In this document: one piece after another, positions 4,461-8,917 of the stretch
Position numbering within the stretch: position 1 is the first letter of the stretch
Layout of the letters: each line of letters begins with the position of its first letter
Origin: Pseudomonadota bacterium
GTDB lineage: Bacteria; Bdellovibrionota; UBA1018; CAIMNF01
Reading direction: 5' to 3'
DNA length: 64,000 nucleotides
NCBI GenBank assembly: GCA_027491115.1
Contig: JAIXWV010000020.1
Coordinates: forward strand, 62,001-126,000
Position numbers and translations under genes: made by a program
The notes under the pieces: generated by a model
The model's input: the letters and a program-made list of their open reading frames with translations, nothing else
What the model was told of the DNA's origin: nothing
Database searches by the model: none

Positions 4461-6017
4461 TCAGAGTGGAATGTTACCGTGTTTGCGTTTCGGCCCAGCT
4501 TCGCGCTTTCCGGCGAGAAGTGACAGCCCCTGGATCAAACGGGCCCGTGTCAGCTCGGGCTCAATCACCTCGTCGAGGTAACCGAGTTCTGCCGCTTTGT
4601 ATGGATTGGCAAAGGTCTCTTTGTAGTGTGCGACGAGTCCCGCGCGGGTAGACTCGAGGGTCCCCTTCGATTCCGCCTCCTGGATCTCTTTACGGTAAAG
4701 GATGTTGATCGCGCCTTCCGGACCCATGACGGCGATCTCGGCATCCGGGAATGCCAGATTGACGTCGGCGCGAATGTGCTTCGAAGCCATCACATCGTAG
4801 GCCCCACCGTAGGCCTTCCGGGTGATCACGGTGAGTTTCGGCACGGTCGCTTCGGCAAAGGCGTAAAGCAACTTGGCCCCGTGACGGATGATCCCTCCGT
4901 ATTCCTGTGCGGTGCCGGGAAGAAAACCGGGAACGTCGACGAAGGTCACGAGCGGGATGTTGAAAGCGTCGCAGAACCGGACGAATCGTGCCGCCTTGGA
5001 AGACGCCGCAATATCGAGACAGCCTGCGAGATGGGCCGGTTGATTGCCGACAATACCGACGGACTGGCCCCCGAGGCGGGCGAATCCGACGACGATGTTG
5101 GCCGCGTATGTAGCATGCACTTCGAGGAATTCGCCGTCATCGACCACATCCTCGATGATGTTCCGCATGTCATAGGGTTTGGTCGAAACATCCGGAAGGA
5201 TTTCGCGAATGCGTGAGCAGGTCCGGTCGTTCGCATCGGTTGATTTTTTTCGCGGAGCCGGGTCGAGATTGTTCGACGGCAGAAATCCTAGCAAGCGACG
5301 TGCTCCTTCGAACATCGCGCGCTCGTCGGGATAAACCAACTGGCACACACCACTCGTCGAGGCGTGGGTCTCCGCTCCACCGAGATCCTCCTTGGTGACT
5401 TCCTCGTGAGTGACGGTCTTGATGACGTCGGGACCCGTGACGAACATGTAGGAGGTGCTCTCGACCATGGCGATGAAGTCGGTCATCGCGGGAGAGTAAA
5501 CGGCTCCACCAGCACATGGACCGAGGATGAGACTGATTTGAGGAATGACTCCGCTCGCTTGGACGTTCCTCCAGAAGATCTCGGCGTAACCTCCGAGGGA
5601 CTCGACCCCTTCCTGGATCCGGGCACCACCCGAATCGTTGAGACCGATCAGGGGCACTCCCGTTTTGAGCGCGAGATCCATGACTTTGCAGATCTTGGCA
5701 GCGTGGGCTCCCGAAAGTGAGCCTCCGAACACCGTGAAGTCCTGTGAGAACACACACACCTGACGACCGGCAATCGTACCGTAACCGGTGACGACACCGT
5801 CCCCCAGGAACTTTTGGTCCTGCATCCCGAAATCGGTGCAGCGGTGGGTGACGAACTTGTCGAGCTCCACGAAGCTTCCGGGATCGAGCAAGAGGTCGAC
5901 GCGCTCACGGGCGGTGAGCTTTCCGGATTGGTGCTGTTTTTCGATCCGGGCTTGGCCCCCGCCGAGTTCGGCCAGACGGGAACGCTCTTTCAGAACAGAC
6001 GTGGAGGGCTGAGTCAT
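4461..6017 (-). CDS. pccB: acyl-CoA carboxylase carboxyltransferase (PccB-like)
   Basis: 518 residues from [12 protein letters not shown], the usual start context of the family; an in-frame GTG 75 bases upstream would add an unlikely extension, and neither has a clear Shine-Dalgarno. Two crotonase-like halves are visible, with the oxyanion/acyl-CoA motifs [11 protein letters not shown] and [12 protein letters not shown] in the first half and [11 protein letters not shown] and [10 protein letters not shown] in the second. It transfers carboxyl from biotin to acetyl- or propionyl-CoA (beta chain), giving malonyl- or methylmalonyl-CoA. First gene of the carboxylase operon; the structured non-coding region lies immediately upstream and might regulate it. 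Confidence 0.92.
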
Positions 6018-6056
6018 AAGTGGGGTCAATCTACCCTGAATCCGCCCCAGAGGGAA

Positions 6057-6096
6057 GGGGGTGGCGCGTGCGACTTTCGTCGCCGTTTCCACCCCC
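6057..6096 (-). other. long hairpin, GAAA loop, upstream of pccB
   Basis: Outer stem of 8 pairs (GGGGGTGG with CCACCCCC), symmetric 5-base internal loop, inner stem GCGAC/GTCGC and a GAAA tetraloop when read on the minus strand. There is no T-run after it, so it is not a simple terminator. It lies about 40 bases before the pccB start codon and could be part of a leader RNA or the last domain of a structured RNA. Confidence 0.5.
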
Positions 6097-6107
6097 CGCC
6101 TGGTTTC

Positions 6108-6139
6108 GACCGCACATCGGGTTTTCCCCGTTACGGCAC
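6108..6139 (-). other. hairpin resembling group II intron domain V
   Basis: On the minus strand: GCCGTA pairs with TGCGGT, then a small 3' bulge, then CGGG/CCCG closed by GAAA. Length and bulge position are like intron domain V, but the triad position reads TGC rather than AGC or CGC and the gap to the next hairpin is about 11 bases, longer than usual. Treated as a resemblance only. Confidence 0.25.
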
Positions 6140-6326
6140 CGGGAGCCGGCCATTTCGATGGAACCGCATTCCCGTGACTCTCCCCGGCTCAAGCCGGCTT
6201 CCGGCATACCCCGGGTTCATCACGGTTGGCGCGCTCCGTCTACACCCCTGATATCAGGGAGTGCGGCCTCTCGTCGTAAGGTCCGTTATCCGTTATCCAT
6301 ACGACCGCTCCTGAGGTCCTCGCTCC

Positions 6327-6349
6327 GACCGGTTTTTGCTCGACCGGTC
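6327..6349. repeat. hairpin repeat copy 1
   Basis: Perfect 7-bp stem GACCGGT/ACCGGTC around a loop that reads CGAGCAAAA on the minus strand. It matches a second hairpin about 230 bases away in stem and loop sequence. Confidence 0.55.
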
Positions 6350-6559
6350 ATCGACGCTTTTCGACCTCGCTGTCCGGCTTGAGGATCGGGAATGAAGGGA
6401 AGCCCCGCATCCGTTCTCAAGTCGTTCCGCACCTTGGTTCTCACTCCTTCAAGCCATGTCGCCTTCATCCGCCATCTTGAAGTCTCCGGACTGCAATCAT
6501 CCAGTCCTCTCATCCGGAGTATGGCCTTCACGGAGTTTCAGGCTCCGCTCGGCACTTCT

Positions 6560-6590
6560 GATCACACCGGTTTTGCTGGACCGGATGATC
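6560..6590. repeat. hairpin repeat copy 2
   Basis: Stem of CCGGT/ACCGG extended by GATCA/TGATC after a small bulge; the loop reads CCAGCAAA on the minus strand. Shares the CCGGTC-AGCAAAA-CCGG core with copy 1. Confidence 0.55.
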
Positions 6591-6940
6591 TTGATGGTGT
6601 TCACACGAAGTTCGCTTACGCTGCAACCTGTACTTGCGCTGATCCCCTGTTCGCATTGCGGATTCCGCATCGGAACCCGGCGGGACCTTTCTGATGGCCG
6701 ACCTGTAGCGGAATCACTCCCGCACGGACCGGACACTGCTTCGCAGTCACTGGACAACTTCTGCGGTGGGACTTGCACCCACTGGAGTTCGAATCGGGTG
6801 TCGCTTCCTTTCTGCCTCCGCCTTTCAGCGCCGGCGATTTCTTTTAGAGCAGGTTCCGTGCCGGGATCTCCTAGGAGGAGAATCACTTTGAGTCGGGAAC
6901 TTGGGACAAATCCCGCAATCGCCGGGATCCGTCGCCCCAC

Positions 6941-8917
6941 TCAGGTCCCGGCAGGCCAGGTCCCTGGAAAAAGACCGGTTCCAACAGGCGCGTGCAAGGA
7001 GTTGAGAGCAGTGGTCTCGTCGATAAAAATGAACGCATCGTATCTCCGGGAAAAGGAGGTGGGCACATAGGTGGACCTTCCTTCCTGATGGGGCGGGGCG
7101 ACTACCCCTACAGCACGATGACCGATCACTTCAGAAAGAGCTTCTCGATCCGCAGGACCGGGGATGACAAACCCCTGCCTCATTTTCCGGATCCGGAGTG
7201 CTTCATGAAAACAAGCTTCGAGTGTACCGTGAGGAGCAGGAGGCAAAGCGATCGACTGCTCCCGCCCACCCCAGGTTGAAGCGGCTAGGGTCTTTCCTGT
7301 CCAGGTTCCAAGGCCGATCAATCCCACCGCGGATTCACCGAGTAGTTTTCGGGCGAGGCCCCCTAGATTCACATAGCCCTCGTCCTCCATGTCCGTGGCC
7401 CGATAGTCTCCAACGTGAGTATTGTGCGCCCAAACCACTCCTTTTCCTCCCCGACCGTCACGCTCACTCTTTTCGAGTAAGAGATCGAGTGTGTCGAGCA
7501 TGTGGGAGTCGCGCACATTCCACGAGGCGGCATCCCCGTTCAATAGGGCACGGTAATAATTTTCCGCATTCACAACAATCCGTGCATTCTGGGTGGCATC
7601 AAACCAATCCTCGTCCTGTTCCAGATGCTGAAGCCTCAATTTGAGTACTTCCTCGAGATTTGCGACGACTTCCGACGCACAACCTTCCGGAATTCTACGA
7701 AGTGACCTTGCATAGGCGATTTCATCCCGTTCATACGGGTCGAAGCAGGCGTAGCGTCTTCGAAGTGCGTTCGACAAGAACGGATTCACCGATTTCACAT
7801 ATTCGAGGACCCGATCCATTGACTCAAAAAGGGAATAGAGATCCAGGCCGTGAATTCCTGCGGATCTCAAGGAATCCGACTGGCGGAGTCCTTCAATGAA
7901 GTCCGCCATCTCACGATTCGCCCACATCCAATTCGGCCAGCGTCGGAATCCCTGCATGACGGCACGGGCACTCCTGCCTTTACCATTCCGGACATAACGG
8001 TGGAGCCGGGAGAGTTCAGGCCAATCCCCCTCGAAAGCCACAAAAGAAAAGCCCTCCAATCCCAATAAAATCCGGGTCAATCGGTCACGGATCCGGTAGA
8101 ACTCGGAGGTTCCGTGGGTGCTCTCACCGAGCATGACGACCTGACGGTGCCGAAAGTGCTGGACGAGTGGGGCCAGATCCTCGTCCCGTTCCATCGGTTG
8201 CAACAGATCGGCGAGGGTATGGATCATCTTCCTGAGTCCGTTGAACGGATGGTGCTCCGGTTCCGATACCGGCTCGGCCACGGGTTGAAGACAGGCCATG
8301 ACCTCCTCGTCTTCAACCTGGGAAAAGTCTCGGTACCATTGCCCCACCGACATCAACTGGTCTGATTCGACGAGTGCGACCAAGGTCGACCCCTCCGAAC
8401 GGACTGCGTCACCGGCCGAGTCCGAACAGACAGGAACCGCTACGACAATTTCGGCTGCACCTTGAAGCTTGAGAGCCCGGACAGCCGCTCGCATGGTCGC
8501 ACCTGTGGCCATTCCATCATCCACCAAAACCACCATGTACCCATCACAGTCTGGCAATCCTCCCCCAGCACGGTAGAGTTTTTTTTGCTCATGGATTCTG
8601 GAGTTCTCATGATCCCGCTCTTCTCTGAGCTCCTGAGCAGTGATCCCTTCTTCCCATCCAGGGTTGAGAAACTGGGTCCCATCCTCGACCAATGCGCCCA
8701 CGGCGAATTCCGGATTTCTCGGCGATCCAATCTTCCTGACCAAACACAACTCCAAAGGAACTTTCAATTTTTGGGCGATCGGGACCGCAACGGGTACACC
8801 GCCTCGCGGTAATGCGAGGACCCTCGTCTTGCCTTTTTCGAATTTTGCGACAGGAATCTGACGCGCCAAGAGAACACCTGCTTCACGACGATTGTTGAAT
8901 TGCACTCCAGACCCCAA
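6941..8917 (-). CDS. phosphoribosyltransferase-erythromycin esterase fusion
   Basis: 658 residues. Residues 1-215 form a PRTase domain with LALPRGGVPVA near 35-45 and the PRPP-binding loop VVLVDDGMATGAT at 129-141. Residues 225-650 form an erythromycin-esterase-type domain: GESTHG (Glu265, His268), FEGDWPE (Glu296) and WAHNTHVGD (His498, His501) match the catalytic Glu/His set of that superfamily. The start is a TTG behind GAAGG; a GTG four codons later is possible. Neither half has a signal peptide, so it acts in the cytosol. Esterases of this clade often act on unknown substrates rather than macrolides; a role in drug resistance should not be assumed. Its stop is followed by the structured non-coding region. 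Confidence 0.82.
   Translation of the reverse strand: MGSGVQFNNRREAGVLLARQIPVAKFEKGKTRVLALPRGGVPVAVPIAQKLKVPLELCLVRKIGSPRNPEFAVGALVEDGTQFLNPGWEEGITAQELREERDHENSRIHEQKKLYRAGGGLPDCDGYMVVLVDDGMATGATMRAAVRALKLQGAAEIVVAVPVCSDSAGDAVRSEGSTLVALVESDQLMSVGQWYRDFSQVEDEEVMACLQPVAEPVSEPEHHPFNGLRKMIHTLADLLQPMERDEDLAPLVQHFRHRQVVMLGESTHGTSEFYRIRDRLTRILLGLEGFSFVAFEGDWPELSRLHRYVRNGKGRSARAVMQGFRRWPNWMWANREMADFIEGLRQSDSLRSAGIHGLDLYSLFESMDRVLEYVKSVNPFLSNALRRRYACFDPYERDEIAYARSLRRIPEGCASEVVANLEEVLKLRLQHLEQDEDWFDATQNARIVVNAENYYRALLNGDAASWNVRDSHMLDTLDLLLEKSERDGRGGKGVVWAHNTHVGDYRATDMEDEGYVNLGGLARKLLGESAVGLIGLGTWTGKTLAASTWGGREQSIALPPAPHGTLEACFHEALRIRKMRQGFVIPGPADREALSEVIGHRAVGVVAPPHQEGRSTYVPTSFSRRYDAFIFIDETTALNSLHAPVGTGLFPGTWPAGT

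Follow-up and report, generated by a model that had tools for sequence, protein, structure and literature searches.

The question raised by this locus is what occupies the gap between two protein-coding genes of the window, by which we mean the whole stretch of 64,000 nucleotides that was analysed. The gap is bordered upstream by a minus-strand gene in which a phosphoribosyltransferase domain is fused with an erythromycin-esterase-like domain (6941-8917, ending at 6941), and downstream by pccB for the acyl-CoA carboxylase carboxyltransferase (4461-6017, minus strand, starting at 6017; PF01039, E 3e-202), a neighbour that lies outside the RNA described here. The first-pass annotation had marked 6018-6940 as a hairpin-rich non-coding block and named a decayed intron, a leader of the carboxylase operon and an undescribed RNA as candidates. 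The block is real but was drawn slightly wide, since the RNA extends from about 6837 to about 6047 and is preceded by a promoter at 6863-6849. This RNA (6047-6837, minus strand, about 790 nt) was delimited on the basis of an alignment of 35 homologues, the folding z-score and conservation; its 5' end would lie 12 nt past the -12 element, at about 6837, and its 3' end presumably coincides with the D6 hairpin plus its tail, at about 6047. The segment 6837-6055 folds better than 20 of 20 dinucleotide shuffles (z = -4.9), and the inverted repeats and motifs named by the annotation are all found on the minus strand: the motif GGGTGCAAGTCCC in 6783-6765, the GAAA-capped 32-nt hairpin, which is the D5-like element at 6143-6106 with TGC at the triad position, and the 8+5-bp GAAA-capped hairpin near pccB at 6097-6057. 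The region is GC-rich and holds ORFs of 147 and 204 amino acids, which would fit chance folding or an overlooked protein-coding gene. However, neither ORF has a Pfam match, their frames are not conserved, no open frame of comparable length is kept on either strand in the closest orthologues, and covariation exceeds a tree-aware null (see below), so that this explanation retains next to no probability and the annotation was right to find no convincing gene.

Searching the DNA of related genomes, mostly metagenome-assembled, revealed orthologous blocks within the genus, and the Rfam model RF02003 (group-II-D1D4-4) added further copies. The aligned copies at the pccB locus of six species share many conserved blocks, the D5-like hairpin and the terminal hairpin. 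A D5 pattern was found at 58 loci in about 85,000 species genomes and at none in viral contigs, and blastn against plasmids returned nothing similar to the block. Of 369 genomes of the phylum, 42 gave a match to R1, a covariance model of D5; in the window's genus the figure was 9 of 12. Ordinary group II introns with a maturase account for some of the weaker matches. The window genome (G000) carries two copies of the RNA, one at the pccB locus (A) and one at a second locus (B; G000:C11:40720-40757), and each of these loci is common to several species.

Covariation among 35 Bdellovibrionota RNAs was assessed by a G-test (average-product correction), with a null drawn from alignments that were simulated on the tree (E 0.5 or less). 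A covariation check had been suggested with the annotation; this one yielded 19 significant column pairs, 18 of which show canonical pairing in 85% or more of the sequences, and several lie more than 100 columns apart. For the helices of D1 alone, pairing amounts to 92%, with 243 double-changed cells, while slid controls reach 52% or less. Moreover, the RNAs of G000 and G007 share 92% identity, compared with 85% for pccB and 53% for the four-fold sites of pccB, and by this measure the RNA is under strong purifying selection. The annotation's notion of a decayed intron, or of another non-functional remnant, could appeal to the triad A that became U and to the weakened terminator in the window's clade, but it is contradicted by the extensive covariation and by the promoter retained in every member of groups A-D of the family; because the RNA is kept at 92% against 53% at four-fold sites, a decaying remnant is excluded, and we leave the whole class of such remnants a very slight probability.

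The consensus structure has the helices of domains 1 through 6 in canonical group II order on the minus strand, the names D2-D4 being assigned from order and position. Domain 1 (6428-6803) is closed by the helix 6803-6797/6433-6428, contains the covarying helices together with the GGGUGCAAGUCCC hairpin (6782-6766), and is the part matched by RF02003. It also holds a pseudoknot (6502-6752), in which the loop of the hairpin 6765-6742 pairs with that of the hairpin 6519-6484 (6752-6751 with 6503-6502); these two adjacent covarying pairs are 100% canonical (E 0.04 and 0.48), stand outside the nested structure and would resemble the alpha-alpha' contact. Domain 2 (6372-6427) is a hairpin, 6427-6417/6382-6372, with 9 bp, of which 6 show compensatory changes and 2 are significant, and domain 3 (6313-6368) is based on the helix 6368-6363/6318-6313 (GAGGUC..GACCUC; 6 bp, 100% canonical, 2 with compensatory changes). 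Domain 4 (6142-6311) is variable, about 170 nt long and without an ORF, above a basal helix 6311-6307/6146-6142. Domain 5, UGCCGUAACGGGGAAAACCCGAUGUGCGGU (6106-6143), which the consensus structure places at 6136-6110, scores 43.5 bits with R1 and has a UGC triad, as is the rule in the window's clade, and a 2-nt AY bulge, here AU; in 36 aligned copies G1-C2-C3-G4 is kept, the triad is AGC in 30 and the A of the AY bulge is present in all 36. The D6-like hairpin GGGGGGUGGAAACG...CGCGCCACCCCC (6057-6097) lacks a bulged branch-point A. Two variants were noted elsewhere in the family: in group H (L175, L176, L177 and L184) AAC replaces AGC at the triad, several members have strong T-run terminators, and these RNAs are probably non-catalytic; and in L171 (2041-2178; G003:C267) about 20 nt are inserted within the otherwise constant GGGUGAAAGUCC loop.

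The comparison with domains I, V and VI of a group II intron, made in the annotation from shape and order, proved correct, as it is borne out by Rfam, by covariance models in both directions and by the consensus structure. The Rfam covariance search that had been advised gave a single match below the gathering score, RF02003 at 6784-6616 on the minus strand (43 bits, E 2.3e-7; gathering score 49), a model that covers a part of D1, about 140 of about 790 nt; at the gathering threshold there is no match anywhere in the block, and no Rfam family other than group II matches the RNA. Over the window and its homologues RF02003 scores 36-61 bits. Conversely, R2, a D1 model built from the Bdellovibrionota RNAs, matches D1 at 19 of the 21 loci that are candidates for introns (best E 3e-20); since it finds the D1 of introns, these RNAs share homologous D1 and D5 domains with true introns. 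The motif GGAAACG...GCGCC of D6 is also common to the introns and the window RNA. RF00029 gave no match to D5 in the window genome at E 1 and none in the homologues. A D1-D5 tree, for which an intron root was assumed, unites the Bdellovibrionota RNAs in a single clade (bootstrap 85), with the introns L101/L106/L082 (100) as its sister.

Elements of this kind in Desulfobacterota, Nitrospinae, Scalindua, Omnitrophota and others have sharp ends, with 5' GUUCG/GUGCGCAGCCCAUA and a D6 that carries a bulged A and ends in CUCUACUCGRC; between their D1 and D5 there is no ORF large enough for a maturase. To judge from these features, they are ORF-less group II introns, and those of Desulfobacterota and Nitrospinae, which keep splice-site-like ends, are the nearest relatives of the RNA. 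ORF-less group II introns were likewise recognised at L086, L095, L101, L106, L118, L125 and other loci in many phyla, and RF00029 misses domain V in the loci tested. In L101 (4193-4076 and 3308-3193, minus strand) and L125 (2874-2759 and 1598-1481, minus strand) two intron copies stand head to tail, those of L101 directly adjoining.

Is the window RNA then itself an ORF-less intron, still capable of splicing or mobility with the help of a maturase acting in trans? The AGC triad and AY bulge that most homologues have, the group F copies of one genome, which hardly differ up to a sharp 3' end, the Desulfobacterota/Nitrospinae relatives with intron-like ends CUCUACUCGAC, and RVT_1 genes in 7 of the 12 genus genomes would be in line with this. 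On the other hand, none of the intron end features sought in the window RNA was found: GUGYG is absent from the first 40 nt past the predicted start, there is no 3' AY splice-site end, relatives having a U-rich tail instead, and the 3' arm of D6, CGCGCCACCCCCUUCCCUC, has no bulged A where introns have CUCUACUCGAC. The bulged A of D6 is gone in groups A-C, whose RNAs also lack a 3' splice site and in many members have a U-tract. Furthermore, because the promoter is fused to the 5' end, there is no room for a normal 5' exon, and the RNA persists for long at orthologous loci. As the annotation had stated, there is no maturase: D4 has no ORF, GIIM is found in none of the 12 genus genomes and RVT_1 is missing from the window genome. 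Among the other RNA-bearing genomes tested, GIIM is missing from 17 of 18, and the same search detects it beside real introns. We also considered whether the RVT_1 proteins of the genus serve the RNAs and rejected this as a rule, for they are non-adjacent, lack GIIM and do not occur in G000. Reverse transcriptase-like proteins without a maturase domain, several with RYGDD, are scattered in the genus (L066-L075; in G010, G005, G004, G011, G001, G002 and G007), and the window genome has none. A splicing or mobile intron is thus improbable here, and splicing would have been lost in the window copy; in groups F and D there are As that resemble possible branch points, so that some relatives may still splice.

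Two features missed by the annotation, a sigma54 promoter and a terminator-like D6, make the RNA look like a free-standing unit. The sigma54-type promoter CGGCACGGAACCTGC (6849-6863, minus strand) has the GG of the -24 element at 6862-6861 and the GC of the -12 element at 6850-6849. Its form, YGGYAYN6TGC, occurs directly upstream of D1 at a near-constant distance in all 21 members of groups A-D, against a background expectation of 0.0023 per locus, and these groups form one clade in the D1-D5 tree, if with weak support (66). The GG-N10-GC spacing is conserved, and the sigma54 gene rpoN is present in the window genome and in 29 of 29 genomes tested. No match to the element was obtained in groups F, G and H; groups F and G share a different conserved upstream block, and group H has a possible sigma70-type one. 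At the other end, T-runs stand behind D6 in L135, L096 and L104, the terminal hairpin is followed by such a run in three of the six species aligned at the pccB locus, and the copies of G004, G011 and G002 have strong terminators. On sequence grounds, D6 together with the U-tract has the form of an intrinsic terminator in several congeneric relatives. The U-tract is degraded in G000, G001 and G007; in the window, where the U-tract is weak, a simple scan for terminators gave no hit.

The position of the RNA raises another explanation, the carboxylase leader already suggested by the annotation: as 5' untranslated region of the operon, the RNA would act on it in cis through attenuation or stability. 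Only 39 nt separate its terminal hairpin from the ATG of pccB, the U-tract is degraded in G000, G001 and G007, and in 5 of the 6 genomes with an A copy the RNA lies directly upstream of pccB. In G002, by contrast, another ORF stands between them, and the copies of G004, G011 and G002 are closed by strong terminators. In addition, the second copy of the genus precedes a convergent MFS gene in four species, and elsewhere the neighbours are genes for HSP20, FtsH, Lon, CBS, PRC-barrel, archease-RtcB and S41 peptidase, a set that hints at stress regulation. Because homologous copies adjoin unrelated or convergent genes, a leader may be possible in the window's clade but does not hold in general, and we regard it as unlikely, if the least unlikely of the alternatives. 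Regarding other contexts, the genes for archease and the RNA ligase RtcB closely follow group F RNAs at L103 and L117, and Host_attach genes are among the neighbours of other copies. In one genome (G098; L085, L110 and L112) the 3' ends of group F RNAs, located at contig edges, are nearly identical and diverge exactly past CCACCAUCUAUCU, which from the sequences is a recent multiplication.

Taking the promoter, the domain order and the loss of splicing features together, we consider it probable that this is a free-standing RNA gene of Bdellovibrio-related bacteria descended from an ORF-less group II intron. Action in trans is a more tentative part, to which we give somewhat less than an even chance. 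The full account, in which a group II intron has turned into a stand-alone, sigma54-controlled, trans-acting RNA by exchanging its 5' splice site for a promoter and its branch-site domain for a terminator, we propose with the same reserve. In such an account, the RNA would be transcribed when a sigma54 activator answers its signal and would fold into a stable, non-splicing group II scaffold, with catalysis lost or optional; it would most likely serve as a trans-acting regulator or RNP scaffold whose D1 loops recognise targets. In the window's clade, with its weak terminator and only 39 nt before the start of pccB, transcription may also continue into pccB and give the RNA an additional role in cis.

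No description of such an intron-derived RNA family was found in the literature searched, which covered few subscription papers, and the family may be described elsewhere. ORF-less group II introns of bacteria have been reviewed (PMC4424553), and are held to be rare there unless their domain V is unlike the known ones (PMC4424553), an exception that the present family fits. It resembles them in its six domains in order, the RF02003-type D1, the D4 without an ORF and, in most members, the AGC triad and AY bulge of D5. It differs in having its own promoter at the 5' end and a terminator-like D6 without branch-point A, as well as in the lack of a splice-site consensus and of a maturase in the genome, in its retention at orthologous loci and in a D5 missed by RF00029. 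OLE is a large orphan RNA with its own promoter. The same is true of raiA/ModT (PMC11706538), and both are, like the window RNA, large, structured, free-standing and conserved, yet without structural relation to it. Closer are the circularly permuted (CP) group II RNAs with the order D5-D6-D1-D4 (Roth et al. 2021, PMC8637638), which are likewise stand-alone, about 900 nt long, derived from group II and without an ORF, with the A of AGC outside a canonical pair. In contrast to them, the window RNA has the canonical order D1 to D6 and no internal splice-site linker, and membership in that class was rejected because in all complete copies D1 precedes the D5-like element. The CP-bearing plasmid pTT8 has no match to RF02003, R1 or R2, and a pattern search did not locate its D5 with certainty. 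Head-to-tail intron copies such as those noted above are a possible route to circularly permuted RNAs. Group II introns are thought to be ancestral to the snRNAs of the spliceosome. To our knowledge, free-standing derivatives of them in bacteria are almost unknown, and the only precedent found is the CP group II RNA with its permuted domains (PMC8637638). If our reading is true, the present family would offer a counterpart in nature to the way in which free snRNAs are proposed to have arisen from group II introns, and since it combines the canonical order with promoters fused to the 5' end and a graded loss of splicing features, the steps of domestication could be read from living lineages, where they are open to tests of catalysis and function.
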